Shown piece by piece: positions 2,475-30,845 of a DNA stretch of 64,000 nucleotides. The stretch is taken from contig PABH01000053.1 of the NCBI GenBank assembly GCA_002702705.1, forward strand, positions 62,001 through 126,000, given 5' to 3'. Numbering within the stretch: position 1 is the first letter of the stretch; each line of letters begins with the position of its first letter. Made by a program: the position numbers and the translations under genes. The DNA comes from Anaerolineaceae bacterium (GTDB lineage: Bacteria; Chloroflexota; Anaerolineae; Anaerolineales; Anaerolineaceae). The notes beneath the pieces were generated by a model. It saw only the letters and a program-made list of their open reading frames with translations. It was not told the origin of the DNA and did no database searches.

Positions 2475-2477
2475 TTT

Positions 2478-2507
2478 TTGACATAAAAATTGACACTATG
2501 TTAAAAT
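2478..2507 (+). promoter_or_regulatory. Sigma-70-type promoter for the DegS-like kinase
   Basis: TTGACA (2478-2483), an 18-base spacer and TAAAAT (2502-2507), starting 4 bases after the stop of the preceding gene. Predicted transcription start is near 2514, giving a leader of about 50 bases with an AAGGAG site before the ATG at 2566. A second TTGACA at 2490 has no good -10 partner. Confidence 0.5.
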
Positions 2508-2565
2508 AAACAACATTCCAAGAGAAAACGTATAATTTTGACAAACAATGTTCAAGGAGCTAAAG

Positions 2566-3639: not shown

Positions 3640-3662
3640 AAGAATAATTTATAGGAGTAGCT

Positions 3663-4835
3663 ATGACAAAGACAATTGGGATTTTAACAGGCGGTGGTGA
3701 TGTTCCGGGTTTAAATCCCGCAATAAAATCTGTGGTAGTAGGCGCAATGGAAATGGGGTACCGGGTAATGGGTATTCGTAGAGGATGGGGCGGATTGCTG
3801 CATTACGATTTAAATGAGCCATCTACACATGAATATTATATTAAAGAATTAACCTATAATGATGTACGCACGATTGATCGAACCGGCGGCACATTTTTGC
3901 ACACTTCACGGACGAACCCCCAACGAGTGGCAGCAGAAAGTGCACCTGGGTTTCTGAAGAATTCTAAATGGGGTACACCCCTCAAAGATCAAAAAGGGTT
4001 TATTGATTATACAGACTATACCTTGGATGTTTTAAGCCATTTAGGAATTGATACATTGGTGCCAATCGGTGGAGATGATACATTAAGTTTCGCTGTTCGA
4101 TTGCATAAAGAAGGTTATCCAGTGATCGGCATTCCTAAAACGATGGACAACGATGTTTTCGGTACAGATTACTGTATTGGATTTTCAACAGCAATTACTC
4201 GAAGTGTTGAATTTATTACCAACATGCGCACCTCTGTGGGTTCACACGAACGCATAGGTATCGTTGAGTTGTTTGGACGAAATTCCGGTGAAACCAGCCT
4301 GATTAGTGCGTATCTAGCTTATGTTGACAGAGCATTAATTCCTGAAGTTACTGTGGATTTAGACAAACTTGCCCAGTTTATTCTGGATGATAAACGTAGT
4401 AACCCTTCTAACTATGCCATATTAACAATTTCCGAAGGCGCTATTTTAGAGGGTGGTGATGTTTATGAAACGGGTGAAGAAGACGCCTATGGGCACAGAA
4501 AATTAGGCGGGATTGGTAATATTATTTCTGACCAAATTAAAAAATTAACGGGTCAAAATACGATGTACCAACAGCTGGGTTATCTAATGCGATCGGGTGC
4601 CCCGGATTCTCTTGATCGAATGGTGGCGATGTCATTTGGTAACTTGGTATCTCAATTATTACGACGTAATGATACTGGAAAACTGGTCGCATTACACGGT
4701 GGAAAATATACAACCGTACCGATTGACATGGTTTTAGCTGGTCGAAAACGGGTGGATGTACCAGCTTATTATGATATGGATAATTATCGGCCCAAGATTA
4801 AAGATTTTATGGGCGTACCGATGTTCTTGAGTTAA
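3663..4835 (+). CDS. pfp: Phosphofructokinase, predicted pyrophosphate-dependent
   Basis: A 390-residue cytoplasmic PFK-family enzyme that phosphorylates fructose 6-phosphate to the 1,6-bisphosphate. The N-terminus has [16 protein letters not shown] for the phosphoryl donor. GGDDT (136-140) places Asp139 where ATP-dependent enzymes have Gly (E. coli Gly104), and PKTMDND (158-164) places Lys159 where they have Gly (Gly124). This Asp/Lys pair is the established signature of PPi-dependent PFK. Asp162 is the predicted catalytic base. A TAGGAG ribosome site precedes the ATG, and a strong terminator follows. The gene lies 23 bases after the orphan kinase and may share its transcript. Donor choice is inferred from residues, not measured. 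Confidence 0.9.
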
Positions 4836-8540: not shown

Positions 8541-10121
8541 TTATTTCCAATCTATTTTTGTTATTAATCCATCACCCGTGATTTGGGCAGATGTATAATC
8601 AGAATCATTTATGATCCAAATGTTTCCTTGATATACAATACCCATATAACATGGTTGATTTTGCTCTTCATTACAAGGACTCCATTCAACTTTTTGCGGA
8701 TCAATTCCAGATGAATCATTATCAGGGAAAATTTGATTTTCGTTAGAACCATCCCGATCAATTAACATTAACCTGTAACGACTTGTATCACTATTTTCCG
8801 GAAAAATGGCATTCAAATACAACAGTTTGTATTGGTTATTGTTTTTTAAACTTGATGTGGATGGATAAGCAAACATACCGATATCATCGGTTGTATTTAA
8901 GATAGTCTTTTCTTCTATTTGAATCGATCTTAAATCAAAGCGCATTGATGATTCGGGATTATTACTATTTCCCAAAGCATTATGATCCACAAAATATAAA
9001 AATTCACTGTCAGGAGACCATGCAATCGGTGAAATCCAAGCCCATTCGCTTCTGGTTTGAAAAGGAACAATACTAATCAATGGCTCAAGCTCATTATCTT
9101 TAAGATTCACTAAACCAACGGTATCAGGTCGAGCAAAAGCAAGGTGTTGCCCATCCGGGCTGTAGGAGAAATAGGATCCCCACCAACCATAAATACCACC
9201 AGAGTTACTTTCAATAAGAACATCATTTTTTATTACACGTCCTCCGGCACCTAACGTGGTAAGTTGTAAATCATTATTTGCCTGCCAGCCTGGGGCCACT
9301 GCACGCGGTTCAACAGTTGAGAAAAGTACTCCTAAATTAAATCCAGGGGCCCATTCAGCATAATGAATAATATTATCTGCTTTGATGTAAATAGGCTCTG
9401 CATTTTCTTCTTCGAGATTGATAATATATAACTCGTTAATGATTTCGGGATCTTCAGAGAGTTGTGTGAACAATAACCATTCTCCATCAGGTGATATCTC
9501 AAATACTCGACCATCAACCAAATTGTTTGTTACGATAGGCCTTCTGTTTGAGGTATCTCCGTCCATAATCCAGGCATTGCCAGAAGCTAAATAAACAAGT
9601 TTACCTTGAATAGTGACAGCTGAAAACGGTGTTTGTACACCAACCATGATAATTTCTGGATTGGCAGTGATGACGTTGACCTGATTTATTTCGGTTTTCG
9701 ATATTAATAAATCATTCTCATAGACAAGCCGGTAGGTTATTTCCCGGAGGCCATTTACACCTGGTTGTATTAGGATGGTTTGCTTTTCAGGAAGGGATTC
9801 GTTTCGTACTGTTTGTCGTTCAAACGGAATAACAATTTCCTCGGTTTCAAATTTTTCAACTACACGTGAGATGGTTATGGTTGTATCTTGTGTGATATGG
9901 GTAAATAATGGTGGGTTAACCTTATCTAATTGAGAAAGCTTGATTTCGTTTTGTGATAAGACGGACTGGATGGTGCTGCCGATACCAGCAGAAGTATTAA
10001 TAGTTTTACCGTCTACTGCTATTGTTATAGAAACGGAATCGACTGTTGATTGGGATTGACATCCGATTAGTAGTATTGTTATTAAGGTGGTAAGAATTCC
10101 GAGTATGATACGAATTTTCAT
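8541..10121 (-). CDS. Lipoprotein with DUF348, G5 and beta-propeller (PD40/TolB-like) domains
   Basis: A 526-residue exported lipoprotein: the N-terminus [14 protein letters not shown] leads to lipobox LIGC, with a short spacer to a DUF348-like domain ([26 protein letters not shown]). A G5 domain follows ([20 protein letters not shown], then [16 protein letters not shown] and the closing IIMVG). The remaining 340 residues hold repeated blades with [20 protein letters not shown] and [10 protein letters not shown], as in PD40/WD40-like TolB propellers. G5/DUF348 modules occur in YabE/Rpf-like cell-wall proteins and bind glycans. A longer reading would run through the divergent scpB gene and is rejected; the lipobox settles the start at 10121. 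It heads the five-gene minus operon. Function unknown; surface sensing or glycan binding is inferred. Confidence 0.75.
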
Positions 10122-10219
10122 TTTATGTGTTAAAATTGTTCGCTTTGACAATGTGGTTTCAGGTATAATTTTCCTGATTTTATTCAATTTGCCAATTATA
10201 GCATGAGTGAAAAAAAGAT

Positions 10220-10774
10220 ATGGTAGATGAGCCAAATTTAACAGCCTGTATAGAAGCAATATTGTTTGCAGCGGGAACCCCGGTGCAAATTTTGCATCTA
10301 TCAGAGGCGCTAGAACAACCCCCAAAAGTAATCGAAGTGAATCTGGATGTTTTAGATCAAGATTTAAAGAATAGTGGGAGAGGTATCCGTTTACAACTTT
10401 TTCAGGGTAAAGCCCAATTAACATCGTCCCCAAATTTTTCAGAAGAAATCGAACGATTTTTAGGAATTGAAGCTACTTCAAAATTATCTGGCGCTGCCTT
10501 AGAAGCTTTGGCCATTATCGCTTACCGCCAACCTGTAACTCGGCCTGGTATTGATTTGATCCGTGGAGTTAATAGTGATGGGGTTTTAAGAAGCTTGTTA
10601 AGTAAAGGCCTGGTAGAAGAAATTGGAAGAGCAGATGGTCCTGGCCGCCCCATACTATATGGCGTTACAGCTGAATTTTTACAACATTTTGGAATCAATT
10701 CATTGACGGAGTTGCCTGAATTAAAATTGGACGAGACGTTTATCGAAGAGAATAATGGGTTATTAAAGGATTAA
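10220..10774 (+). CDS. scpB: Segregation and condensation protein ScpB
   Basis: A 184-residue protein with the tandem winged-helix layout of ScpB: IEAILFAAGTPV at the start, then EALAIIAYRQPVTRPGID and the RGVNSDGVLRSLL and GRPILYGVT segments that define the family. ScpB dimers bridge ScpA and SMC in the bacterial condensin that compacts and separates replicated chromosomes. The usual partner scpA is not in the window. A perfect TATAAT lies at 10164-10169 upstream but without a well-placed -35. The gene ends 3 bases before the pseudouridine synthase gene, an arrangement common in many phyla. Confidence 0.93.
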   Translation: MVDEPNLTACIEAILFAAGTPVQILHLSEALEQPPKVIEVNLDVLDQDLKNSGRGIRLQLFQGKAQLTSSPNFSEEIERFLGIEATSKLSGAALEALAIIAYRQPVTRPGIDLIRGVNSDGVLRSLLSKGLVEEIGRADGPGRPILYGVTAEFLQHFGINSLTELPELKLDETFIEENNGLLKD

Positions 10775-10777
10775 TGT

Positions 10778-11560
10778 ATGGCAGAAGAAAGATTACAAAA
10801 AATATTAGCAAAAGCTGGCTACGGATCTCGTCGATCAAATGAAGAATTAATTGCGGCAGGTAGAGTCAAAGTAAACGGTGTTGTAGCAACATTGGGTATG
10901 AAAGCAGATGCAGCAAAAGACGATATTTTTGTTGACAACCAAATGATTCCCAAAAGTGAAGAACCGATTTATATTGCGTTGTATAAGCCGCGTGGCGTAT
11001 TATCAGATCAGGCAGCTGATGATCCAAGAAAAAATGTCAGAGATTTGGTGGATGTACCAGGTCATTTATTTGCAATTGGCCGGTTAGACTTGGATAGTGA
11101 AGGATTGATGATCTTAACGAATGATGGTGAGTTAACTAATCTGTTGACCCATCCTCGTTATGGGCATGAAAAAGAATATCGCGTACTGGTTGCAACAAGA
11201 CCGGATGAAAACCAAATTGCTATCTGGCGACGTGGTGTTGTTTTAGAAGATGGCGAAAAAACGGCTCCATGTATTGTCAGTATAATTCGATGGCATGGTA
11301 AGGGCGCATGGTTAAAAGTTGTTTTGAAAGAAGGTAAAAAACGCCAAATACGAGAAGTTGGCAAACAAATTGGTTTACCAATTGTTAAATTGATTCGGAT
11401 TCGAATTTCAACTTTAACTCTCGGGAACTTAAAACCAAAAGAGTGGCGTTACTTGACAGAGGAAGAAATCGAATCACTGAAAAAATCAACGGTCCAAAAG
11501 CCAGTTTATCGAAGGTCAAGAAATTTTCCTCGTGGCAATCAAAAAACTAAACGAAAATAA
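10778..11560 (+). CDS. Pseudouridine synthase of the RsuA/RluB family
   Basis: A 260-residue enzyme that isomerises uridine to pseudouridine in rRNA. The S4 RNA-binding domain occupies about residues 3-60 (ERLQKILAKAGYGSRRS). The catalytic domain has GRLDLDSEGLMILTNDGE with catalytic Asp104, KEYRV, and KEGKKRQIREVGKQIGLPIVKLIRIRI, the RsuA/RluB/E/F signature. The C-terminal tail is Arg/Lys rich, as in RluB. scpB-rluB adjacency supports the RluB (23S rRNA) assignment, but RsuA specificity cannot be excluded. A bidirectional terminator follows directly. Confidence 0.9.
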   Translation: MAEERLQKILAKAGYGSRRSNEELIAAGRVKVNGVVATLGMKADAAKDDIFVDNQMIPKSEEPIYIALYKPRGVLSDQAADDPRKNVRDLVDVPGHLFAIGRLDLDSEGLMILTNDGELTNLLTHPRYGHEKEYRVLVATRPDENQIAIWRRGVVLEDGEKTAPCIVSIIRWHGKGAWLKVVLKEGKKRQIREVGKQIGLPIVKLIRIRISTLTLGNLKPKEWRYLTEEEIESLKKSTVQKPVYRRSRNFPRGNQKTKRK

Positions 11561-11564
11561 AAAA

Positions 11565-11600
11565 GTGAGGCTGACAAAAAATGGTCAGCCTCGCTTTTTT
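11565..11600 (+). terminator. Bidirectional terminator between rluB-type gene and NERD-like gene
   Basis: An 11-bp stem (left 11565-11575, right 11584-11594, one G-U pair) with an 8-base loop, flanked by A-rich sequence on the left and six T residues on the right. The symmetric A/T flanks let it serve both converging transcripts. The T-run overlaps the stop codon of the minus-strand gene. Confidence 0.88.
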
Positions 11601-12306
11601 ATTCTTCAATGAATAGTTGTTGATATTTTGTTATTTCATCATTTATTGATGGATTTTCTTTCGCGATTTTTCTTAATTTATCTTTAAATTTTTCTGCCTT
11701 CACAATCAAAATATCACTTTCGTTTTGTTCTTCAAGGGAAGCATTTTTGTGAAGTAATAAAACTGCACCATTTAAAGGCATATCAAATCCGATCTTATTT
11801 TTCTTTAAAAACCGATCGAGATCTTTTTGGTTTGCTTGAAGTTCTTTTTGCGGATTACCGAGTGTTTCTTGGGAAATAAACTTATTAATAAATGAGCCAC
11901 CTTTTCGACGCCAAGTATTTTTCTTCTCGTTAAATTCCAAAGTTCCATCAATGAAAGAAGGAGTTATTGACCAAACCCCAGCTGGTCCGATTAATAGGTG
12001 CGTCACTGGTGTGTTATAGTGAAAAATTGTGTAACGATCATCAAGTCCTTTTAGGGATTTATCAATTAATTCATCTGGTCGGGGCGATTGTCCAAAACGC
12101 GAATTGAGATAATTCCCAATAGAAGACATGAAAAAACCAATAATTACGATTGTAAATACCAGTGTTGTTAACGTAGGGTTTTCTGCAACGGATGGCTGAA
12201 AAACAATCCATAAGCCAATACCCATAATAATTAAGCTGAGCCATTTCAGGATGTTACCCATCCGTTTATTTCGTCTGACCATTTTTTCATCAATATAAAT
12301 TTTCAT
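11599..12306 (-). CDS. Membrane-anchored NERD-like protein
   Basis: A 235-residue protein with a basic N-terminus, two membrane helices (about residues 20-40 and 47-66) and a cytoplasmic domain. That domain carries VTHLLIGPAGVWSI, a GTLEF strand and a DLDRFLKK helix, resembling the nuclease-related NERD fold found fused to membrane anchors in many bacteria. The catalytic Asp/Glu-x-Lys pattern is not clear, so enzymatic activity is doubtful. It lies 22 bases after plsX on the same strand and ends in the shared terminator, so it is probably the second gene of a plsX operon. Function not known. Confidence 0.55.
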   Translation of the reverse strand: MKIYIDEKMVRRNKRMGNILKWLSLIIMGIGLWIVFQPSVAENPTLTTLVFTIVIIGFFMSSIGNYLNSRFGQSPRPDELIDKSLKGLDDRYTIFHYNTPVTHLLIGPAGVWSITPSFIDGTLEFNEKKNTWRRKGGSFINKFISQETLGNPQKELQANQKDLDRFLKKNKIGFDMPLNGAVLLLHKNASLEEQNESDILIVKAEKFKDKLRKIAKENPSINDEITKYQQLFIEE

Positions 12307-19707: not shown

Positions 19708-21612
19708 ATGCAGAAAAAATATCGCTTACCATTAACTCTTTTTTTGTTAATTACAGGTTTTTTAATTGTTCTAGCTATATCACGTCTGGTTGATTTTAAA
19801 TATAACGCGGTTCAACCGGTTATAACAGAGCAATTGACCCCAACAATAATCGTTCCGACTGAAGTAGTCGATGAAGAATCCTTACTCCGATATAATGCTG
19901 ATGAAGGAATTCAGATTCATGATATACAAGGCGAAGGTCATCATTCATTATTAACACGGAAATCCGTAGAATTTTTAACCGGTGTTGTGACAGTAAAACG
20001 TGCAGATGGGTTTTATATGCAGTCTTTGAAGCCTGATGAAAGTGATTTGACTTCGGAAGGTGTTTTTGTTTATCTGAATAAACCACCGAAACTTGATATT
20101 GGTGATTTGGTTTTTGTTAATGGGAAAGTGACAGAGTTTTATCCTGGAGGAATGGAAACAGGCAATCTTTCAATAACTCAGATTGAAAATGCAGATTACG
20201 GGGTGATTTCTCGGAATAATCCATTACCAACGCCGGTTATACTAGGTGAAGGTGGAAGAAATTTACCAACCAATGTGATTGAAGATGATGAAAATCAATA
20301 TTTTGATTTATCAGATGGTTTGGATTTTTTTGAGAGTTTAGAAGGTATGTTAGTTCAAGTAAATGATGCAATTGTTGTAGCACCAACAACAGCTTATAAA
20401 GAAATTGCAGTCCTATCTGATAAAGGAAAATCAGCTACCGGTGTCAATGAACGAGGTGGAATTACGATAAGCTCAGATGACTTTAATCCAGAGCGCATTA
20501 TTTTGGATGATAGTTTGGCCTCTTTACCTGAAGTAAAAACAGGTGAAATGTTAGAGAGTCCGATTATTGGTGTTGTGGATTATAGTTTTGGGAATTATAA
20601 GATCCAGGTTTTACAGAGAATAAAAGGTGATAATCAAGGTGTAAAAAAAGAAGTTGCTGCTGATGAAAAAGACAATGACCTGACGATTGTGACCTATAAT
20701 GTTGAAAATTTGGATGGCGCAGATTCGGAAAAACGATTTGAATTACTAGCAGACCAAATTGTTAATAATTTAAAATCTCCTGATATTTTAGCCTTCCAGG
20801 AAATTCAAGACAATAATGGACCTATCAATACGGATGATTCCTCAGCAGATTTGACCTATCAAAAAATCATTAATGCTGTTGTGGAAGCTGGCGGTCCGGT
20901 TTATCAAGCAATTGATATCGCTCCAGAACCTAATAAAGATGGTGGTGAGCCAGGTGGTAATATCCGGGTTGGATTTCTTTATCGAAATGATACCGGATTG
21001 GAACTGGTTTCAAAACCAATTGGTTCAGCAAAAGAATCAGTAAGCGTACTGAACGAGGATGGTTTTGCAAGTTTATCGGTTAATCCGGGAAGGATTGATC
21101 CATTAAATTATGCTTTTATTGATAGTCGCAAACCCGTAGTTGCAGAATTCCTGTATAATGGTAAAAAGTTGTTTATCATAAATAACCACTGGAATTCCAA
21201 AGGTGGAGATACACCCTTATTTGGCTCAATTCAGCCACCAAGGTTAGATTCAGAGATACAAAGGAATAAACAGGCTGACGTAGTTAAGGAATTCATTCAA
21301 AAAATCAATTCAATCGAGAAAGATGCACTCATACTTGTGGTAGGTGATATAAATGATTTTTATTTTGCAAATCCTGTTAAAAGCTTGGAAGATGCAAATA
21401 TGATAAATTTAATGGTGCGTTTAACCCCGGCTGAAAGGTATTCTTATATTTATGATGGAAATTCCCAAGTGTTGGATAATATGCTTGTTTCACCAGTATT
21501 AAATGATCTTGTTACTGAATTTGACATTATTCATATTAATTCCGAATTTCCCTACCGGGAACGTTTTTCTGATCATGATCCTGTGATGGTGCGATTTAAT
21601 TTTTTACGATAA
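19708..21612 (+). CDS. Membrane-anchored secreted endonuclease/exonuclease/phosphatase family nuclease
   Basis: 634 residues. An N-terminal membrane anchor or signal (about 5-24) exports the protein. Residues about 70-320 form beta-rich, OB-fold-like regions (YMQSL, LDIGDLVFVNGKVTEF) as in ExeM/YhcR-type extracellular nucleases. The EEP catalytic domain follows: TYNVENLD (329 onward), LAFQEIQDN (Glu about 365), NHWNSKGGD (His494), VVGDINDF (Asp about 547) and SDHDPVMVRF (about 622). These are the metal and catalytic residues of the DNase I-like fold. It likely degrades extracellular DNA or other phosphoesters. It lies 27 bases upstream of the ABC permeases, which suggests that its products feed the transporter. 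Confidence 0.82.
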   Translation: MQKKYRLPLTLFLLITGFLIVLAISRLVDFKYNAVQPVITEQLTPTIIVPTEVVDEESLLRYNADEGIQIHDIQGEGHHSLLTRKSVEFLTGVVTVKRADGFYMQSLKPDESDLTSEGVFVYLNKPPKLDIGDLVFVNGKVTEFYPGGMETGNLSITQIENADYGVISRNNPLPTPVILGEGGRNLPTNVIEDDENQYFDLSDGLDFFESLEGMLVQVNDAIVVAPTTAYKEIAVLSDKGKSATGVNERGGITISSDDFNPERIILDDSLASLPEVKTGEMLESPIIGVVDYSFGNYKIQVLQRIKGDNQGVKKEVAADEKDNDLTIVTYNVENLDGADSEKRFELLADQIVNNLKSPDILAFQEIQDNNGPINTDDSSADLTYQKIINAVVEAGGPVYQAIDIAPEPNKDGGEPGGNIRVGFLYRNDTGLELVSKPIGSAKESVSVLNEDGFASLSVNPGRIDPLNYAFIDSRKPVVAEFLYNGKKLFIINNHWNSKGGDTPLFGSIQPPRLDSEIQRNKQADVVKEFIQKINSIEKDALILVVGDINDFYFANPVKSLEDANMINLMVRLTPAERYSYIYDGNSQVLDNMLVSPVLNDLVTEFDIIHINSEFPYRERFSDHDPVMVRFNFLR

Positions 21613-21639: not shown

Positions 21640-22806
21640 TTGGCAACGATTGGTCTTAAGAAGAAACCACGATCACGCTCTCAATTTTTACGGGAGCTAA
21701 AAGAGAATATTACCGCGTATTTATTTATTTCTCCTGCTGTGTTGGTAATTGCGATATTTGGTTTATTTCCAATTGGTTATTCAATTTATATGAGCCTTTT
21801 TAAATGGCGTGTTCAAAAAGGCGATTTTATAGGGTTGGAAAATTATTCTGATATTATAGGTGATTGGTTTGGTTTATTAATTTTCTTAGGCGGATTGGTG
21901 TTGCTTGGCTTGGCATTTTGGGTTTGGAATAACGCTTTTCGCTCTATGAATAATGGTGCTTTGGTAGCAAAATTAATTGCTGCTGTTTTGTTAGTCGCCG
22001 TTGGATTAACATTGTCACTAGGCTGGGAGAAAATGACCACTGCTGGTGAAGATGTATTTTTAAATTCATTAATAATTACTTTATTTTATGCTCTTGGTAG
22101 TGTTCCTATTCAATTAATATTAGCCTTGATCCTGGCTTATATATTGTTTCAAAATATTCGGGGGAAAGAAATATTCCGGATGATCTACTTCCTTCCATAT
22201 GTAACACCGATCGTATCTACTGCAGTAGTTTTTCGGACAATATTTAGCCCCAGAGAGACTTCCCTTGCAAATATATTGATTGGAAAAATTGGAATTGAAC
22301 CATTAAAATGGCTTTTTGAACCTAAACCTGTCACAGAGTTAATGTTTGGTTGGGAGAATTTAAATAGTTTTTTGGCAGGTCCAAGCCTGGCGTTAGTCAC
22401 GATTATTCTTTTTGGTGTATGGTCTTTTGTTGGTTATAACACTGTTATCTTTTTGGCTGGTTTGGGTGGAATTTCAAAAGAAATTTATGAAGCAGCAGAA
22501 ATTGATGGAGCAAGTACATGGGGCCTTTTTCGTCACGTTACCATTCCATTACTTTCACCAATTACTTTTTATTTGTTTTTGATTTCTTTTATTGGAACAT
22601 TTAAAGCATTTAATCATATTTATGTAATGAAAGTGCCTAATGCACAAAAGACAGTAATCACTGCTAGCGTCCAAGTATTCCAAACCTTTTACACTGAAAA
22701 CAACTTTTCGGTTGCAGCAGCAGAGGCAATCATCTTATTTTTAATCATTTTGGGGTTGACCTATGCACAAAATAAACTTTTAGGAGATCGGGTATTCTAT
22801 GGCTAG
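21640..22806 (+). CDS. Sugar/glycerol-phosphate type ABC permease (MalF/UgpA family), enlarged
   Basis: A 388-residue inner-membrane permease. The MetI-like EAA loop is EAAEIDGASTWGLFRHVTIP (near residue 284), the contact for the ATPase. MalF/UgpA-type family members without big periplasmic loops are usually near 300 residues. Here an insertion of about 70 residues (about 78-135) adds two hydrophobic helices between the first helix and the core. The start is TTG at 21640, set by GGAGGAGG 6 bases upstream. It overlaps the second permease by 8 bases. The nearest ATPase is PhnC-like, not MalK/UgpC-like, so either a shared ATPase comes from elsewhere or the pairing is unusual. Confidence 0.85.
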   Translation: MATIGLKKKPRSRSQFLRELKENITAYLFISPAVLVIAIFGLFPIGYSIYMSLFKWRVQKGDFIGLENYSDIIGDWFGLLIFLGGLVLLGLAFWVWNNAFRSMNNGALVAKLIAAVLLVAVGLTLSLGWEKMTTAGEDVFLNSLIITLFYALGSVPIQLILALILAYILFQNIRGKEIFRMIYFLPYVTPIVSTAVVFRTIFSPRETSLANILIGKIGIEPLKWLFEPKPVTELMFGWENLNSFLAGPSLALVTIILFGVWSFVGYNTVIFLAGLGGISKEIYEAAEIDGASTWGLFRHVTIPLLSPITFYLFLISFIGTFKAFNHIYVMKVPNAQKTVITASVQVFQTFYTENNFSVAAAEAIILFLIILGLTYAQNKLLGDRVFYG

Positions 22807-23701
22807 TACAGCAAAAACCACGACTTCAACCTATTCCGCTCGTAAAAAAGGCAGTTCTGATAAAACAAAACGAGTTTTATTAAAAGCATTTTTGTATCTT
22901 GTCTTAATTCTGGGCGCGATTGTCGCATTAATGCCTTTCTATTGGATGATATCAACATCACTGATGAGTTTAGGTGAAACGATTAACCGAAAATGGTTAC
23001 CCGAGGTTCCACAATTTGTTAATTATGTAAATGCTTGGAATGAAGCGGACTTTGCAAAGTATTTTTTCAATAGTGTGATTATTACTGCTGTCACTTTATT
23101 AGGGATTATGACGACTTCTACGTTAGCAGGTTATGCATTTGCCAGAATAAAATTTTGGGGAAGAAATGTAATTTTTGCAATCTTGTTAAGCACATTAATG
23201 ATTCCTGAATCAATCACTTTACTACCAAATTTGCTTTTGGTGCGCGGTAGTATTATTCCCTTGCCAGGTGGTTCATGGATGAACACCCTTCAAGGATTAA
23301 CTGTGCCTTTTATGGCTAATGCGTTCAGCATTTTTCTACTTCGTCAATTTTTTGCTCAAATCCCGAATGAATTATGGGATGCCGCCCGAATTGATGGGGC
23401 AGGCCATTTCCGTTTCTTGATGCAAATTGTACTTCCCATCAGTAAAGCACCAATCATGACTGTTTTGTTATTTGGTTTCACCGGTTCATGGAATGCATTT
23501 GCCTGGCCGCTTTTGGTGACCACGCGAGATACCTGGCGACCACTAATGGTTGGTTTGTGGACATTTGTTTCAGAGGCTGGCCCGGAAACGCATTTGTTAA
23601 TGGCTGGTGCTGTAATATCGTTATTACCAATTTTGGTAATGTACTTTTTAACCCAAAAGCAATTTACCGAAGGTATTGCTACAACCGGATTGAAGGGTTA
23701 A
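22799..23701 (+). CDS. Sugar/glycerol-phosphate type ABC permease (MalG/UgpE family)
   Basis: A 300-residue permease with six helices. Its EAA loop is DAARIDGAGHFRFLMQIVLP, and the segment MPFYWMISTSL near the first helix is typical of MalG/UgpE proteins. Length is normal for the family. It pairs with the preceding MalF/UgpA-like subunit (8-base overlap) to form the heterodimeric pore, and it precedes the fused binding protein by 73 bases. Substrate is not determined by the permease sequence. Confidence 0.92.
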   Translation: MASTAKTTTSTYSARKKGSSDKTKRVLLKAFLYLVLILGAIVALMPFYWMISTSLMSLGETINRKWLPEVPQFVNYVNAWNEADFAKYFFNSVIITAVTLLGIMTTSTLAGYAFARIKFWGRNVIFAILLSTLMIPESITLLPNLLLVRGSIIPLPGGSWMNTLQGLTVPFMANAFSIFLLRQFFAQIPNELWDAARIDGAGHFRFLMQIVLPISKAPIMTVLLFGFTGSWNAFAWPLLVTTRDTWRPLMVGLWTFVSEAGPETHLLMAGAVISLLPILVMYFLTQKQFTEGIATTGLKG

Positions 23702-23774
23702 TATTAATATGTGGGTACCGGAGAGAGTTTGCTCCGATATAAAAACTTTAGTTCCAAATTTAGGAGGAAAAAAG

Positions 23775-26165
23775 ATGAGAAAGCATCTGTATGGTGTAAT
23801 TGCTGTTTTGATGGCGCTAACCATGTTGTTAGCCGCTTGTAAACCAGCCGCAACACCGGCCCCCACCGATGAACCTTCCACGCCGTCTGAAGGTGAACCT
23901 ACCGAAGAAATGGCAGAAGGCTTTTCGTGGGATAATGTCGACCCGAGTGGTCAGGAAGTCATTTTCTGGCACCAACACTCAAAAGAACGAGAAGAAGCCC
24001 TTAATCAAATCGTTGAAGACTTTAATGCCACCAACGAATACGGCATTACTGTCGTTGCCGAATACCAGGGCAGTTATGGTGACATCTTCAACAAAATGTT
24101 GGGTGTTCTGAATACATTGGATGCACCTGATTTAGTAGTTGCATACCAGAATCAGGCCGCAACTTACCAGCTTTCCGATGCCTTAATGGACATGAATGAG
24201 CTGGTAAACAATGAAAAATGGGGTTTAAGCGAAGCTGATAAAGCAGATTTCTTCCCCGGATTTTATAGCCAGGACGTATTCCCCAATTTCGGCAACCAGC
24301 GTTTAGGCCTGGCACCGAACCGCTCCATGGAAGTAATGTATTATAACATGGATTGGTTAAAAGAATTGGGATATGATGCTCCCCCAACCACACCTGACGA
24401 ATTCAAAGAAATGGCTTGTAAAGCTGTTGAGAATCCCTTCAGTAAAGCTACTGTTGATGGCGCAAAAGGTTATGAGTTAAGCATTGATGCCTCCAGAATG
24501 GCATCATGGACATTCGCTTTTGGTGGCGATGTCTATAACTATGAAGATGCTGCTTATACCTATGATAGCGAAGCCTCTAAAGAAGCGATGACCTTCATTC
24601 AGGATTTAATTAATGAAGGTTGTGCCTCTCAAGTAGTAGAAGCCTACGGTGACCAGACTGACTTCGGCAATGGTACCCTGTTGTTTGCAGTTGGTTCAAG
24701 TTCAGGTTTACCTTACTACGGTTCTGCAGTGGACGCTGGTGCACAATTTGATTGGAGCGTTGGTCCGATCCCGCACACAACTCCTGATCCAGTAATGAAT
24801 GTTTATGGAGCGAGCGTTTCTATTCCAAAAACAACACCAGAACGCCAATTGGCAGCATGGTTATTTACGAAATTCTACACCAATCCGGAACAGCAGGCTG
24901 TTTGGGCAAAAGCCTCCAATTACTTCCCGGTTCGCGCTTCCGTTGCAGAAGGTCTGTCAGATTATTTTGCAGCAAATGAAACGTACAAAACTGCGTTTGA
25001 TCTCTTACAATACAGTTGGTTTGAGCCCCCAGTACCTGGGTACGACTTTGTTCGTGATGAGGTTTCCTCCGCTATGGCCGCTATCGTTGATGGTGCTGAT
25101 GTGAATGAAACTCTGAACGCATTAAATGAATCTGCGAATGAACAATTGGCTGAACAGTTGTCTCAAACTTCCGCTCCGCCACCACCACCACCAACAGCCG
25201 TTCCAGAACCAACCCCAGAAGTTAACGTTGGAACCGAAGACCACCCAATCAAAGTATTGTTTGTTCCTTCAGTTGATGTTGATTTCATGATTTCCAGTGG
25301 TGATTTAATTGCTCAGGCATTAAACGAAGCTACAGGTTTATTCTTTGAGGTTAGCGTACCCACTTCATATGCAGCCACTATTGAAGAAATGTGTGCTTCT
25401 CCGACCGATACAATTGGTTTTATTCCCGCCTTGGGTTATGCTTTAGCTAACCAATTATGTGGTGTGGAGCCTGGTTTGGCTTCTGAACGATATGGTTGGA
25501 ATGTCTACTGGACAGAATTTGTTGTTGCTCGCGACAGTGATTTCCAAACATTAGAAGATCTTGATGGCGCAACCTGGGCATTCCCGGATGCAGGATCAAC
25601 TTCAGGATATCTCTATCCATTGGCTATCTTTGATGACCTCGGTATAGCCCCAGGCGAACAGATTGAAGCAGGTGGACATCCACAAGCTGTTAAAGCTGTT
25701 TATAACGGCGAAGCAGATGTTGCAACCGTTTACTTTAGTGCCCCATTGTTACCCGAAGGCACTTGGCAAATGGGCGATTCTCCGGATGTACCGGATGAAG
25801 TTGTTGAAGAGTGTGGTCCCAATGATGAGGGCAAGTTGTATTGTGGCGGTTATCGTGTTTTAGATGCACGCTCTGCTATTTTGACAGAAGCCCCCGATGT
25901 TGTCCAAAAAGTTCGTATCCTCGACCTCTCTGGTGAGATCCCGAATGACACAATGTCCTTCTCCCCGGATTTCCCGGAAGATTTACGACAAGTGATCATG
26001 GATGCAGTAGTTGCTTATATTCAGACAGATGCCTGTGCTGAAACATTATGTAACGAAAAATTCTATGATTGGACCGGTGCTGGCCCTATCTTTGATGAAA
26101 ACTTTGATGGCGTTCGTCTTTTGATGGAAGCACAAGGTATCACCTTAGAAAATCTTGGTGAATAG
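23775..26165 (+). CDS. Fused solute-binding lipoprotein: family-1 (UgpB/MalE-like) domain plus PhnD-like domain
   Basis: One continuous 796-residue frame. Start at 23775 follows AGGAGG, and the signal peptide ends in lipobox LLAAC with Cys22. Residues about 30-450 are a family-1 binding domain: VIFWHQHSKEREEAL, DLVVAYQNQAATY, APNRSMEVMYYN, WLKELGYDAPPTTPDEFKEM. A proline-rich linker (about 463-485, six consecutive Pro) joins it to a PhnD-type domain (about 490-796): KVLFVPSVDVDFM, AATIEEMCASPTDTIGFIPA, LEDLDGATWAFPDAGSTSGY, as in phosphate/phosphite/phosphonate-binding proteins. It lies between MalFG-like permeases and PhnC/PhnE, so it may serve both pores or capture two ligands. Codons favour C-ending forms (TTC, AAC, ACC) more than neighbouring genes, consistent with high expression. 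I do not know of this fusion as a described protein. Confidence 0.88.
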   Translation: MRKHLYGVIAVLMALTMLLAACKPAATPAPTDEPSTPSEGEPTEEMAEGFSWDNVDPSGQEVIFWHQHSKEREEALNQIVEDFNATNEYGITVVAEYQGSYGDIFNKMLGVLNTLDAPDLVVAYQNQAATYQLSDALMDMNELVNNEKWGLSEADKADFFPGFYSQDVFPNFGNQRLGLAPNRSMEVMYYNMDWLKELGYDAPPTTPDEFKEMACKAVENPFSKATVDGAKGYELSIDASRMASWTFAFGGDVYNYEDAAYTYDSEASKEAMTFIQDLINEGCASQVVEAYGDQTDFGNGTLLFAVGSSSGLPYYGSAVDAGAQFDWSVGPIPHTTPDPVMNVYGASVSIPKTTPERQLAAWLFTKFYTNPEQQAVWAKASNYFPVRASVAEGLSDYFAANETYKTAFDLLQYSWFEPPVPGYDFVRDEVSSAMAAIVDGADVNETLNALNESANEQLAEQLSQTSAPPPPPPTAVPEPTPEVNVGTEDHPIKVLFVPSVDVDFMISSGDLIAQALNEATGLFFEVSVPTSYAATIEEMCASPTDTIGFIPALGYALANQLCGVEPGLASERYGWNVYWTEFVVARDSDFQTLEDLDGATWAFPDAGSTSGYLYPLAIFDDLGIAPGEQIEAGGHPQAVKAVYNGEADVATVYFSAPLLPEGTWQMGDSPDVPDEVVEECGPNDEGKLYCGGYRVLDARSAILTEAPDVVQKVRILDLSGEIPNDTMSFSPDFPEDLRQVIMDAVVAYIQTDACAETLCNEKFYDWTGAGPIFDENFDGVRLLMEAQGITLENLGE

Positions 26166-26187: not shown

Positions 26188-26218
26188 CTCAGTCCCGGAA
26201 GATTTATCCGGGACTGAG
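26188..26218 (+). other. Strong intercistronic hairpin after the fused binding protein
   Basis: An 11-bp perfect stem (26188-26198 with 26208-26218) and a 9-base loop, but with no T-run behind it. It resembles the 3' stabilising or partial-termination hairpins often found after binding-protein genes, which raise binding-protein expression over the downstream ATPase and permease. Confidence 0.65.
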
Positions 26219-26305: not shown

Positions 26306-27058
26306 ATGCTAGAAATAAAAAATGTAACGAAAATCTATGATGGGAATGTTTTAGCTCTGGATGATGTGAGTTTCAATATCAAACAAGGCGAATTTTTGGC
26401 TATCATTGGATTAAGTGGTTCTGGAAAATCCACCTTATTACGATGTATAAATCGGTTGGTTGAACCTACCAAAGGCGATATTATTATGGATGATATCAAT
26501 ATTACTAATGCCAGCCAGGATGAACTACGTCGTATTCGGCGGAAGATTGGTATGATTTTCCAGCATTTTAATCTTGTTGAACGATCCAAAGTTATGACAA
26601 ATGTTCTGGCAGGAAGACTGGGTTATACCAATCCGGCTATGAGTCTTGTGAATCGTTTTTCAAAAAACGATGTGGAAATGGCCTTAAAACAATTGGAACG
26701 GGTTGGTATTAAGGATCAGGCTTATAAACGAGCAGATGAATTAAGTGGTGGGCAACAGCAACGGGTGAGTATTGCTCGAGCGATGATGCAAAATCCAAAA
26801 TTAATTTTAGCAGATGAGCCAGTAGCAAGTTTGGATCCGGTTTTAGCCCATTCCATTATGCAATATTTGGAAAAAATTAATAAAGAAGATGGCGTTACAG
26901 TAATTTGTAGTTTGCATTTTCTAGACCTGGTACATCGTTATGCGAATCGGGCAATAGCACTGAATGCTGGTAAATTGATGTTTGACGGTTCACCGAAAGA
27001 CATTGATGATGAGAAATTTAAAGAAATTTACGGCAAAGAAGCTGAACGTGTAGGGTAG
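26306..27058 (+). CDS. phnC: PhnC-type ABC transporter ATP-binding protein
   Basis: A 250-residue ATPase. Walker A is GLSGSGKST (35-43), the signature is LSGGQQQRVSIARAM, and Walker B is LILADEPVASLDP. QHFNLVERSKVMTNVLAGRLG after the Q-loop (IFQHFNLV) is typical of PhnC, which powers phosphate/phosphite/phosphonate uptake. The ATG at 26306 (MLEIKNVTK) is chosen because the family begins there; an upstream ATG at 26243 would add a hydrophobic, unrelated leader. No good SD is seen at 26306. It precedes the PhnE-like permease by 8 bases. Confidence 0.88.
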   Translation: MLEIKNVTKIYDGNVLALDDVSFNIKQGEFLAIIGLSGSGKSTLLRCINRLVEPTKGDIIMDDINITNASQDELRRIRRKIGMIFQHFNLVERSKVMTNVLAGRLGYTNPAMSLVNRFSKNDVEMALKQLERVGIKDQAYKRADELSGGQQQRVSIARAMMQNPKLILADEPVASLDPVLAHSIMQYLEKINKEDGVTVICSLHFLDLVHRYANRAIALNAGKLMFDGSPKDIDDEKFKEIYGKEAERVG

Positions 27059-27066
27059 GTGATATC

Positions 27067-28887
27067 GTGAAAACTAAAAGACCACTTTTAAAATCTATTG
27101 GCGTGGGTTTGGCTGTTGCTTTGGGGGTAATTATTTTTGCTTATGCCTTTCAAGTGACTGATGTGAATTTTGAAACAACACGCTCTGAAGTTCGAATGAC
27201 AGGACTGACGCGTGTACTACGGGCGTTAGCGAAACCAGAGCTGTTTACAAGAGACACAACAGAAGTTGATATTCAAACTCCATTTTACTTACCCTGTCCA
27301 GAGTCCGGACAAATGGAAGAAATCGAAACAGGTGGAAATGAACCATATCTACTGACCAGTGTACCTTGTGCGTCGGCGAAAGAAATGATTACTGTTGAAG
27401 GATACAATTTCCCCCCAAACTCCAGTGGACCAATCAATTTTTTAACTGCAAGTGGAGTTAGTAAACAATTAGCAAACTTTGATTCCGATAGTGATGGTTA
27501 TTTTAATGTTGAGGTTGAGGTTCCAAACCGGCAGCCAGTGGAAGAGGCACAACATATTGTAGCGACAATTCGAACAACTTCCGGTCCGCTAAAATGGACG
27601 GACACAGCGAAGGCAACGTGGGAAAAGATTATTGAGACAGTGTTTATTGCGTTATTAGCCACCGCAATTGGTACTATTGTTTCGATCCCAGTCAGTTTCC
27701 TTGCTGCAAAAAACTTAATGAAAGATTCTACAAGTACACCAACAAACGTGGCACTAGCAATCTTAAGTTGGCCTGCGGGTATTTGGGTGGGTCTTAAATT
27801 TACAAAATGGGCCATTAATGTTTTAGATCCTTTGTCTGAGCAAATACTGGTTGCTTTGGCGGGATCAATTTTATTTGCTGGTATAGCCTATTTATTAGTT
27901 CGTAAAGGATTGCCCGCTGAAGATATCGCTAAACCAACTAGAAAAACACGAATTATTCGAAATGTATTTCTTTTTGGTAGCGCTGTTGCAGGTTTGTTAG
28001 CAATCATATTTTTTGGAAGTTTTGCTAAGTTAGCAGGAGACATTATCACAGAACCCTTAGGAGTTTTTGGCTTCTTAGGGAATGCATTGTTCCTTTTAGG
28101 TGATATCACCTTAATGCTTGCTCCAGCTATGATAGCAGTAGCTGTTGGTGGTGTTTTTGCAAGTATTGTGGGTAAATTTGGACAATCCCTGAATGACAAA
28201 TTAAGCTCTAGTTCACTTAAAGTCGCAAATTTAATCTTCACATCTCTAGCGGGAGCTGTCTTATTCGCCCTAATTATGGCAGGGATTAATTGGTTTTATC
28301 AGATTAATGATCCAAAAATTGTGCTTTATTATCCATTAGCTATTGGTGGTATTGTGGGTTTTCTGTTGGCTTTGGCAGTCAGACCCAAGCATCCACTCCC
28401 AACGGGTTTGATAATCTACACAATTATTCGAACTTTATTAAATACTACCCGTTCGATTGAACCGTTAGTAATGGCTATTGTTGCGGTGATTTGGGTTGGA
28501 ATTGGTCCTTTTGCGGGCTCACTTGCTTTAGCATTACATACGATTGCCTCTTTGTCAAAGTTGTATTCTGAACAGGTTGAAAGTATTGATGATGGACCAC
28601 TGGAAGCAATTCAAGCAACTGGGGCAAACCGATTGCAGACAATTGTTTATGCCGTAATTCCACAAATTATTCCACCTTACATATCATTTACTATGTATCG
28701 TTGGGACATCAATGTTCGTATGTCGACCATTATCGGTTTTGTCGGTGGTGGTGGTATTGGGTTCTTATTACAACAAAATATTAATTTGTTAAATTATCGA
28801 GCGGCTTCGGTTCAAATGTTGGCAATTGCTATTGTTGTAGCATCAATGGATTATATTAGTTCCAAAATTCGCGAATCAATTGTTTAA
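27067..28887 (+). CDS. phnE: Enlarged PhnE-type ABC permease with extracytoplasmic IPT/TIG-like domain
   Basis: 606 residues, more than twice the usual 260-280. After the first helix (about 10-28) comes an extracytoplasmic region of about 155 residues, with an IPT/TIG-like strand set (MITVEGYNFPPNSSGPINF at about 117-135 and FDSDSDGYFNVEVEVP, the latter resembling a Ca-binding loop). PhnE-like sequence begins at IIETVFIALLATAIGTIVSIP. It is then interrupted by about 220 residues with additional helices before the canonical core: RTLLNTTRSIEPLVMAIV, IGPFAGSLALALHTI, SKLYSEQVESIDDGPLEAIQ and GFVGGGGIGFLL. The EAA-type segment is near residues 512-530. It pairs with PhnC 8 bases upstream. The insertion is not a frameshift, since the frame is continuous. 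Confidence 0.82.
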   Translation: MKTKRPLLKSIGVGLAVALGVIIFAYAFQVTDVNFETTRSEVRMTGLTRVLRALAKPELFTRDTTEVDIQTPFYLPCPESGQMEEIETGGNEPYLLTSVPCASAKEMITVEGYNFPPNSSGPINFLTASGVSKQLANFDSDSDGYFNVEVEVPNRQPVEEAQHIVATIRTTSGPLKWTDTAKATWEKIIETVFIALLATAIGTIVSIPVSFLAAKNLMKDSTSTPTNVALAILSWPAGIWVGLKFTKWAINVLDPLSEQILVALAGSILFAGIAYLLVRKGLPAEDIAKPTRKTRIIRNVFLFGSAVAGLLAIIFFGSFAKLAGDIITEPLGVFGFLGNALFLLGDITLMLAPAMIAVAVGGVFASIVGKFGQSLNDKLSSSSLKVANLIFTSLAGAVLFALIMAGINWFYQINDPKIVLYYPLAIGGIVGFLLALAVRPKHPLPTGLIIYTIIRTLLNTTRSIEPLVMAIVAVIWVGIGPFAGSLALALHTIASLSKLYSEQVESIDDGPLEAIQATGANRLQTIVYAVIPQIIPPYISFTMYRWDINVRMSTIIGFVGGGGIGFLLQQNINLLNYRAASVQMLAIAIVVASMDYISSKIRESIV

Positions 28888-28996: not shown

Positions 28997-30205
28997 ATGA
29001 CAATGAATCTTCAAAAGAAATCACAATTTAGGCTTCAAGGATCAGGAAGCGCAGAATTGGCTTTTGCTGTGGTGGTTTTGGCTTCGTATTTTGCAATGTT
29101 TAGCGAAATGAAAGAAACCGATGCCATTCGATTGATAGGTATGGTTCTTTTAGGTGTTGGGTATATTTCTATTGGCATTTATGGGTATGACTATTGTTTA
29201 AAAAAACAGTCATTTGAATGGGTGATTTTATATTTTCTTGTTCAAATACCTTTAGGGGCTTTTATTATCTACTTGGGTAGGGGGGTTAGTTTTTCTGCAT
29301 TATTACTTTTACCGCTAGCTGGTAATGCAGTGGTAATGGTCCAGGGATATTGGTTGTATGCAGTAAATGCATTGATTGTATTTGGGTATGTAATCTCGGT
29401 ACGTATGCATACTGGGGTTTGGTCGGATGTCTGGGCTTCCTTACCAATGATATTGTCTGGTTTAGTTTATATTATGGTTTTTACACAAATGGCTTTAGAT
29501 GAGGAAAAATCTAGAAGGGAAGTTGAACGGCTGGTCGAAAAATTAGAAACAGCAAATATAAAATTAAGAAAGTATGCTGATGAAGTAGAAGAATTAGCTA
29601 TAATCCAAGAACGAAACCGATTAGCAAGGGAAATTCACGACGGATTAGGGCATTATTTAACAACGATCAATATGCAGCTCCAAGCAGCTGAAGTTATTTT
29701 GGATAAAGATCGTGATAAGGCCTTAAGTGCAATTAACAAAGCGAAAATTCAATCACAGAACGCGTTAATTGATGTTCGAAAATCTGTATCTGCATTACGT
29801 TATGATCCTGATGAATATCTTTCTTTTGAATCCGTGTTACTTAAAGCAATTCGCCCTTGCGAATGGGTAGGCATCTCTCCTCACCTAAAAATAATTGGTA
29901 GTGAAGATAATTTAACTCCTACAATTCGTTCAACAATTTTCCGTGTTGTTCAGGAAACTGTAAATAACACATGCAAATATTCTAAAGCATCTGTCTACGA
30001 AGTAATTATTGATTATAATCATGAAGGAAAAATAAAATTAGAAATAAAAGATAATGGTGTTGGAACAGAATTGTTCCAAGGTGGTTATGGACTTATGGGT
30101 TTAAAAGAGAGAATAGAATTGATTAATGGTAAACTGGAAATCAATTCACGCCCGAATGAAGGTTTTCAATTGGAAATAGAGATACCTTATGATAAAGAAA
30201 ATTAA
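28997..30205 (+). CDS. Membrane sensor histidine kinase (HisKA_3)
   Basis: A 402-residue kinase. Five to six hydrophobic helices fill about residues 20-170 with little outside sequence, then a short coiled coil (REVERLVEKLETANIKLRKY). The HisKA_3 box is RNRLAREIHDGLGHYL with His214, and the HATPase domain follows (VQETVNNTCKYSKA, DNGVG, GGYGLMGLKERIEL). It is the NarX/LiaS-like type that senses membrane or intramembrane signals. The regulator gene overlaps its end by 17 bases. Position just downstream of the transporter operon suggests, but does not prove, a link. The start has no SD; the mRNA is likely leaderless. Confidence 0.88.
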   Translation: MTMNLQKKSQFRLQGSGSAELAFAVVVLASYFAMFSEMKETDAIRLIGMVLLGVGYISIGIYGYDYCLKKQSFEWVILYFLVQIPLGAFIIYLGRGVSFSALLLLPLAGNAVVMVQGYWLYAVNALIVFGYVISVRMHTGVWSDVWASLPMILSGLVYIMVFTQMALDEEKSRREVERLVEKLETANIKLRKYADEVEELAIIQERNRLAREIHDGLGHYLTTINMQLQAAEVILDKDRDKALSAINKAKIQSQNALIDVRKSVSALRYDPDEYLSFESVLLKAIRPCEWVGISPHLKIIGSEDNLTPTIRSTIFRVVQETVNNTCKYSKASVYEVIIDYNHEGKIKLEIKDNGVGTELFQGGYGLMGLKERIELINGKLEINSRPNEGFQLEIEIPYDKEN

Positions 30206-30845
30206 AATTTTAATTGTGGATGATCAAGAGCTCTTTCGAGAAGGGTTATACACCTTATTATCTGTGCAGGATGATTTTAATGTTGTCAGTCAAGCTGGAA
30301 ACGGTGAGGAAGCGATACTAGAAACAGCGAAATACCAACCCGATATAATTTTAATGGATTTACGTATGCCCGTATTGGATGGCGTGTTGGCCACAAAAAG
30401 AATATCTCAACAATTTCCACAATCTCGTGTTATCGCATTAACTACATTTGATGATGACGATTTGGTCTTTGATGCATTACATGCAGGAGCGGTTGGTTAT
30501 TTGTTAAAGGATGTTTCTCCTGAAAAACTTTTTGAAGGTATTCGGGCAGCCAGCCGTGGTGAATACTACTTATTGCCCACAATAACAGCAAAAGTTATGG
30601 CTGAGTTTACGAAGCTACCACGTATGCCAAAACAAGCAAAATCCGATTTAATTGAAAACTTATCACGAAGAGAATTAGAAATTTTACGTATGGTTTCCAT
30701 GGGGCTCAGCAATAAGGAAATTGCAAGTGATTTGGTGATTGCAGAAGGTACCGTAAAAAACCATTTAACGAGTATTTTTAATAAATTGGATGCGAGAGAT
30801 CGAATGCATGCTGTACTTATAGCCAAAGAAAATAGGATCTTATAA
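30189..30845 (+). CDS. NarL/LuxR-family response regulator
   Basis: A 218-residue cytoplasmic DNA-binding regulator. The receiver domain has the acidic pair Asp11-Asp12, phospho-acceptor Asp57 (IILMDLRMP) and the conserved Lys in GYLLKD. The GerE/LuxR helix-turn-helix follows in the last 65 residues (LSRRELEILRMVSMGLSNKE, VAEGTVKNHLTSIF-like). It overlaps its cognate kinase by 17 bases. Targets are unknown. A small palindrome (ATGTGCTT...AAGCACAT, 30845-30873) lies immediately after the gene. Confidence 0.92.
   Translation: MIKKIKILIVDDQELFREGLYTLLSVQDDFNVVSQAGNGEEAILETAKYQPDIILMDLRMPVLDGVLATKRISQQFPQSRVIALTTFDDDDLVFDALHAGAVGYLLKDVSPEKLFEGIRAASRGEYYLLPTITAKVMAEFTKLPRMPKQAKSDLIENLSRRELEILRMVSMGLSNKEIASDLVIAEGTVKNHLTSIFNKLDARDRMHAVLIAKENRIL

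Follow-up and report, generated by a model that had tools for sequence, protein, structure and literature searches.

A chimaeric lipoprotein joining two unlike solute-binding proteins recurs in Anaerolineae, with a linker that looks like an exchange joint

The usual account of ATP-binding cassette (ABC) importers gives each pump a single binding protein and places specificity in separate genes, and a survey in EMBO Reports is said to count one, two or four binding sites per transporter. In GlnPQ of Lactococcus lactis, according to the accessible sections of the source, two substrate-binding domains (SBDs) of sub-cluster F-IV are fused to their own permease, bind independently and are joined by a 14-residue linker (PMC8025302); a review, in its accessible part, mentions binding proteins fused to a transport domain (PMC8276074). 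Here, we analyse a gene in a 64,000-nucleotide stretch of an Anaerolineaceae bacterium (GCA_002702705.1, contig PABH01000053.1, positions 62,001 to 126,000 of the forward strand), called the window below; its features are given in window positions and all lie on the + strand. This gene (23775..26165) encodes a lipoprotein of 796 amino acids in which a solute-binding protein (SBP) half of the SBP_bac_8 type, called SBP1, is followed by a PhnD-type half. The initial annotation, made from the letters alone, knew of no described example. Our literature search, judged largely by titles and abstracts and with subscription journals mostly uncovered, likewise found no free lipoprotein in which unlike binding proteins are fused.

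The chimaera is real: two unlike binding-protein families share one anchor and one linker. Translation confirms a frame open over all 796 residues without interruption and a single lipobox, both already annotated; the lipobox, LLAAC with Cys22, was read by eye at the end of the signal peptide (23775..23840). An AGGAGG ribosome-binding site lies a few bases 5' of the ATG, and by eye no ribosome site of similar quality serves a longer alternative start at 23709 (818 aa). The SBP1 half (23910..25160), nearest to a dinucleotide-binding protein and UgpB by sequence and fold comparison, matches SBP_bac_8 (PF13416) over residues 78-404 (E 1.3e-34; 120.8 bits against a gathering cut-off of 27; profile positions 1-277 of 279). 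It leads into the proline-rich linker, found as described at residues 463-485 (25161..25229), and then into the PhnD/PtxB-type half (25230..26162), which matches Pfam Phosphonate-bd over residues 497-755 (E 7.9e-34) and is recognised as well by NCBIfam and structure alignments. The domain search thus returned the two different binding-protein folds that had been proposed, and Pfam places only these two binding domains in the protein, the permeases being separate genes. An internal second lipoprotein was rejected: no second hydrophobic leader or signal peptide is visible by eye in the translation at the joint. Structure prediction, suggested as a check, succeeded in part, giving a good model for the SBP1 half only and a disordered linker (pLDDT below 50 at residues 467-482).

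In a search of 101 related genomes (G numbers denote genomes and L numbers loci; G000 is the genome of the window), the fusion was found as one frame in G098 (71% identity over residues 3-796) and in G005 (66% over residues 1-794). The proteins of G002 and G003 are 65% identical over residues 1-654 and 1-653, their PhnD halves being of a different type (about 30% identity), and single-domain relatives of either half are also present elsewhere. Homologues are thus not always two separate genes, the outcome that the initial annotation had named as fatal to its claim. A misassembly specific to the window was rejected because the same one-frame architecture recurs at the same locus in other assemblies. 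More generally, an assembly or sequencing artefact is extremely improbable: the relatives with named records are metagenome-assembled genomes, but several assemblies carry the same fusion and, judged from substitution rates, its PhnD half is under purifying selection (dN 0.062 and dS 1.95 against G006, this dS being near saturation). The fusion is recurrent, and both halves are probably functional.

Within the genus, the same fusion occupies the same locus in four of the eight genomes examined (G000, G005, G002 and G003). As far as the contigs reach, all eight share the order TrmI-Nudix-L25-[...]-PhnD-PhnC-PhnE-histidine kinase (HK)-response regulator (RR)-membrane protein-TypA. Among the unfused genomes, G007 has a nuclease gene and then a single PhnD, G001 and G004 have L25 and then a single PhnD, and the contig of G006 stops just 5' of PhnD. 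Two modules recur, nuclease-UgpA-UgpE-SBP1 and PhnD-PhnC-PhnE, and the HK-RR pair can follow either. The four fused SBP1 halves form one clade (SH-aLRT 99) in a quick tree with midpoint root and no bootstrap, and this half may have originated only once within the genus. The PhnD halves of the same four occupy three separate positions: that of the window is sister to the single PhnD of G001/G006, that of G005 is sister to the single PhnD of G004/G007, and those of G002/G003 lie far away. With four genomes fused and four unfused, this locus offers a natural set for testing the effect of fusion.

The PhnD part moves together with its pump. Between G001 and G004, TypA (98%), RR (96%), HK (94%) and TrmI (within 94-98%) are nearly identical, and Nudix, L25, the membrane protein and PlsC reach 84-89%, against 54% for PhnD, 76% for PhnC and 52% for PhnE. 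Between the window and G001 the flanking proteins share 54-75% (PlsC 46%), against 89% for PhnD, 88% for PhnC and 68% for PhnE. PhnD, PhnC and PhnE therefore change jointly against the flanking genes. At the DNA level, compared in 30-base windows, G001 and G004 are 90-100% alike through the lipoprotein leader, and their identity drops to 47-60% inside the codons of the proline-rich linker; past it, identity stays mostly at 45-75% except for short conserved stretches, and it rises again over roughly the final 200 bases of phnE. From this profile, PhnD-PhnC-PhnE has been exchanged in these unfused relatives as a cassette with its left edge in the linker, which thus resembles an exchange joint. 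For the fused lineages the corresponding joint is expected after SBP1, where the breakpoint is not mappable because the genomes are too diverged. Beyond what had first been annotated, the fusion is one of many and its C-terminal part is swapped as a cassette.

Indeed, PhnD is fused to another binding protein in at least 36 genomes over all surveys. With a PhnD profile, the class survey gave a match in 226 of 396 genomes (E 1e-20) and the order survey in 238 of 400 (E 1e-40); since only long frames were followed up, the fusion counts from both are lower bounds. In the order survey, at least 25 of the 238 genomes with a match encode PhnD and a further identified binding-protein domain in a single frame. 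Of the 36 genomes, 29 are Pfam-confirmed and seven (G395, G362, G682, G509, G502, G539 and G114) rest on BLAST/HMM comparison; all belong to the class of the window. A survey of relatives, as had been proposed, thus finds fusions in the genus and in other families of the class. The partners of PhnD are SBP_bac_8/1, SBP_bac_3, Bmp (once or twice) and Bmp+SBP_bac_3, the last giving triple fusions that would put up to three unlike mouths on one lipoprotein. PhnD is C-terminal except in L110 (PhnD-PhnD-SBP_bac_8) and L186 (PhnD-Bmp). L137 (G489), from the order survey, is listed apart from the 36: its SBP1-like part is cut off by the contig end, and the 25 C-terminal residues left of it share 92% identity with L059. 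We rejected L105 (G251), where only PhnD was found, and L185 (G918) and L187 (G878), where by eye a lipobox lies immediately ahead of PhnD and the frame before it is GC-rich.

Several other long frames were seen. Two were not counted: L104 (2239-7041, +), a 1601-aa frame with WD40 repeats and a C-terminal PhnD, and L145 (G569, from the order survey; 1598-3937, +), which joins PhnD to an N-terminal part of about 465 aa without Pfam match and has genes for a Bmp-type ATPase and permease downstream in place of PhnC/PhnE. L053 (G019; 8936-11644, -) is a tandem SBP1-SBP1 of 903 aa with two nearly identical copies.

A survey with Bmp (188 of 201 genomes with a match) shows that fusion of one SBP to another is broader than PhnD. 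Among the matches listed, where 14 long frames were followed and 10 Pfam-scanned, we found Bmp+SBP_bac_1 (L171), Peripla_BP_4+Bmp (L172), Bmp+Peripla_BP_4 (L175), SBP_bac_3+Bmp (L179 and L181) and Bmp+PhnD (L174), as well as Bmp-Bmp tandems (L180, L182 and L183, by BLAST only). The same survey brought up Ser/Thr protein kinases joined to Bmp (L173 1793-4099 +, L176 2087-4873 + and L178 1368-4427 +; L177 resembles L176 by BLAST only), perhaps ligand-sensing kinases, and L184 (1064-7000, +), a Bmp domain in a very large surface-like frame (3337 aa) with beta-helix and Ig-like domains.

When 81 PhnD domains, 48 of them single and 33 fused, were placed on a tree, the fused/single label had to change 16 times, and 13 of these changes are forced by well-supported branches; an earlier tree of 86 rows gave 19 and 13. 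The smaller tree drops L161, L158, L104, L137 and L145 (very long branches, unsure rows), and stretches shorter than 220 residues and the 177-residue PhnD copy of L110 were left out of both; fused rows are over-represented because the rows are loci chosen for follow-up. A single origin of the PhnD fusion is contradicted by the 13 forced changes. A serious rival explanation is that fusion is near-neutral: neighbouring lipoprotein genes in merged operons would fuse and split often, one anchor being enough, and no new property would arise. This would accommodate the scattered label, the very close PhnD relatives that are unfused (89-90% identical) and the many partner kinds in both domain orders. 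It would also accommodate L181, where [SBP_bac_3-Bmp] is followed by a separate PhnD gene and then a permease, the state expected before a join. On the other hand, the fused SBP1 seems to be kept across a diverged clade of the genus, and shuffled labels scatter more widely over the tree (a mean of 25.9 changes against 16). Moreover, in the phylum survey, 71 of the 98 genomes with a PF12974 match lie outside the class, and among their matches only two frames exceed 600 aa (frames of about 500-560 aa were left out) and both were judged false; fusion is thus not a universal drift. We consider the near-neutral account rather unlikely. Frequent gain and loss would fit such a trait too, and any benefit of the fusion is hypothetical.

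The genes around the fusion point to the reading that we favour. Upstream lie an ExeM/NucH-like extracellular exo/endonuclease-phosphatase gene (nuc, 19708..21612; Pfam Exo_endo_phos) and two permease genes, one UgpA/MalF-type (21640..22806; BPD_transp_1, best NCBIfam UgpA, E 1.6e-19, below cut-off) and one UgpE/MalG-type (22799..23701; NCBIfam UgpE, E 6.6e-40, below cut-off). Downstream come the PhnC ATPase (26306..27058; TIGR02315, 346 bits, above cut-off), the PhnE permease (27067..28887; TIGR01097, 242 bits, above cut-off), a HisKA_3 HK (28997..30205) and a LuxR-type RR (30189..30845), the last two by Pfam; the PhnC start is our choice, the open reading frame being listed from 26243. The order is thus nuc, UgpA, UgpE, fusion, PhnC, PhnE, HK, RR, and each half adjoins the membrane parts expected for it. 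One UgpC-type ATPase above cut-off is encoded elsewhere in the genome and could power UgpA/UgpE. The fusion is the sole PhnD of this genome above the TIGR01098 cut-off; a second, unlike PF12974 protein (371 aa, contig C38, 100.7 bits in Pfam, above cut-off) stays under it (50.5 against 112).

Partner permeases show the same pattern at other fusions. UgpA and UgpE lie 5' of eight of the 10 SBP_bac_8/1 fusions examined (L143 has none; upstream of L059 is outside the sequence examined). SBP_bac_3-type permease genes lie 5' of four of eight SBP_bac_3+PhnD fusions (three not assessable, L140 none) and of four of five triple fusions (one contig ends). A Bmp-type ATPase stands beside eight of 11 Bmp+PhnD fusions (L144 and L147 none, L107 at a contig end) and near L186, the sequence of L174 being too short to tell. 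About 14 kb more brought no partner permease genes for L140, L144 and L147; Bmp-type permease genes occur elsewhere in six of the seven genomes without local ones. Around 14 single PhnD operons, no UgpA/E, Bmp or SBP_bac_3 permease match was found within 9 kb, some flanks being short. The pattern agrees with two or more halves that each supply a separate pore.

The initial annotation had offered delivery to two pores, presentation of ligand pairs or coincidence sensing. Delivery to two pores is the best supported of the three, because UgpA/UgpE accompany the SBP1 half and the PhnD half varies in step with PhnC/PhnE; the hand-over itself we infer. That both halves instead feed the one pore PhnE, like the two fused SBDs of GlnPQ, is improbable. 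In its favour, PhnC-PhnE comes after most fusions whose contigs reach far enough, certain partner domains lack a permease of their own nearby and PhnE is enlarged; however, the enlarged PhnE serves single PhnD too, the two halves are of unlike families and UgpA/UgpE sit directly 5' of most SBP_bac_8/1 fusions. The idea of a coincidence sensor, reporting two ligands to the HK-RR pair lying directly 3' in the genus, fares worse still and we regard it as very improbable. Indeed, the same pair follows unfused PhnD-PhnC-PhnE (G001, G004, G006 and G007) and unfused SBP1 in two other genomes (G030 and G057), and fusions outside the genus have no HK-RR relative of at least 55 bits in the sequence examined, some of it short.

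The ligands can be predicted from conserved residues. By sequence (E 8e-29) and by fold (E 3.5e-18, rmsd 8.4 Å), the solved structure nearest to the SBP1 half is the Thermus dinucleotide-binding protein, ahead of UgpB. UgpB holds phosphate through Tyr64, Ser143, Ser266 and Tyr342, and two Tyr and two Ser are common to UgpB and the glycerophosphocholine- and dinucleotide-binding proteins, according to the accessible part of PMC12718374. We matched these roles to E. coli UgpB and found the four kept as Y76, S159, S283 and Y358, columns invariant in seven aligned rows. The Gly and Arg of UgpB are also kept; its two-Trp glycerol clamp and its Glu are not (Y/S and Gln at those columns), and the score against the UgpB equivalog NF008211 is 58.9, below the cut-off of 411. 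Of the residues Y56, F79, N81, S127, Y224, T240, Y246 and Q274 of the dinucleotide-binding protein, whose contacts we took from the mutant titles of the entries with a numbering offset of 2 worked out by us, five are identical, two conservative and one different. On these comparisons, the SBP1 half likely binds a phosphodiester, with a dinucleotide as first choice. The PhnD half scores above TIGR01098 (126.6 against 112.05) and below the PhnD equivalog TIGR03431 (72.3 against 261.1). With residue roles taken from the accessible part of PMC5700983, the PtxB anion site (Tyr, Tyr, Ser-Thr-Ser, His) is kept, its first Tyr being Phe in G002/G003; S124-T125-S126, H151 and Y94 are invariant in 12 rows aligned to 5jvb. 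This pocket would favour a P-oxyanion. Phosphite is not expected, because the phosphite-capping Tyr208 is Asp241 (IPND); by eye, the half also carries an insert of about 50 residues with Cys.

We thus favour, with a probability of about 0.6, a lipoprotein with two independent sites on one tether, each serving its own ABC pore in phosphorus and nucleic-acid scavenging, and joined by cassette at the linker. The N-terminal half would pass a ligand of phosphodiester type, with dinucleotides or glycerophosphodiesters as the likeliest candidates, on to the UgpA/UgpE-like permease, driven by a MalK/UgpC-type ATPase encoded elsewhere. The C-terminal half would hand a phosphate- or phosphonate-type anion to PhnE/PhnC, and the operon headed by the ExeM/NucH-like gene would scavenge phosphorus and nucleic-acid fragments. 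Such a protein would have arisen by in-frame docking of a PhnD-PhnC-PhnE cassette behind a neighbouring binding-protein gene, with the junction inside a proline-rich lipoprotein linker, and the linker would continue as exchange joint. If the two halves feed two pores, tethering would be a way to co-localise uptake systems and to fix their ratio.

Several observations weigh against this picture. The nuclease is below its family cut-off (NF033681, E 9e-51, 173 bits against a curated cut-off of 300, aligned 91-631), and no nuc gene lies between L25 and PhnD in G001/G004. The fusions of G634, G562 and G640 have no partner permease in the approximately 30 kb examined, the triple fusions have no Bmp permease nearby, and L110 (3695-6778, -) has UgpA/E and no PhnC/E match in 13 kb. 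Superposition on the matching folds is loose (rmsd about 8 and 11 Å for the two halves), and the second lobe of the PhnD half is poorly modelled, its confidence being low also when the half is modelled alone.

Three further features of these operons deserve mention. A strong hairpin with 12-bp perfect arms (26188..26218) lies between the fusion gene and phnC. Of 32 loci compared, 28 have a strong hairpin with a perfect stem of at least 10 pairs 3' of the gene for the binding protein, whether this is fused or single (the exceptions being L059, L144, L022 and L023), at about 12-62 bases and with differing sequences (window, L050, L051, L021 and others). The shuffle control, made on the window and L050 only, gave z of -6.1 and -4.3. 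Rfam has no match in the window or in five related loci, and a riboswitch link was dropped. In such operons of Clostridia a hairpin is suggested, in the accessible part of PMC9045158, to set the binding protein in excess over the permease. By analogy the hairpin here may do so, and both halves of a fusion would then be made in equal excess. Secondly, the PhnE of the window (606 aa against the 252 positions of the TIGR01097 model) is more than twice the usual PhnE size, with a large extracytoplasmic-looking stretch near the N-terminus by eye; PhnE is split into two frames in L106 and L108. Finally, a gene of about 419 aa lies 5' of the permease/PhnD operon in L152 (4856-6112, +), and alike in L149, L153, L061 and L064.

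Set against known systems, nucleases beside ABC and phosphate transporters are described for the DNA-degradation loci of Izemoplasma (PMC8289736), an ecological analogue in whose accessible description fused binding proteins do not appear. The SBP1 half resembles the Thermus dinucleotide-binding protein (PDB 7c0f series), its nearest solved structure, whereas that is a single protein about 26% identical to it and the ligand here is a prediction. It shares with UgpB (E. coli, M. tuberculosis, Phaeobacter) the phosphate-coordinating Tyr/Ser/Ser/Tyr, the Gly and the Arg, and differs from it by the missing Trp clamp and Glu and by an NCBIfam score of 59 against 411. The PhnD half is like the PtxB/PhnD family (PF12974, TIGR01098) in its STS-His-Tyr site and its TIGR01098 score, and unlike it in the change of Tyr208 to Asp, the Cys-bearing insert and a score under the TIGR03431 cut-off. 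The most novel part is the exchange joint in a coding linker, together with the range of partners: within one bacterial class, unlike binding proteins have been joined time and again, and one of the parts is swapped along with its pump. Tentatively, the binding proteins of Anaerolineae may be exchangeable plug-in parts, where PhnD-PhnC-PhnE docks in frame behind a plain leader or at least three other SBP families. This would give multi-mouth lipoproteins that gather importers round one tether, here stripping nucleic acids of dinucleotides and phosphorus. Like GlnPQ, the fusion is a single chain in which a short, flexible linker connects two binding domains; unlike GlnPQ, whose SBDs are fused to the permease, it joins unlike SBP families in a free lipoprotein beside two transporters.

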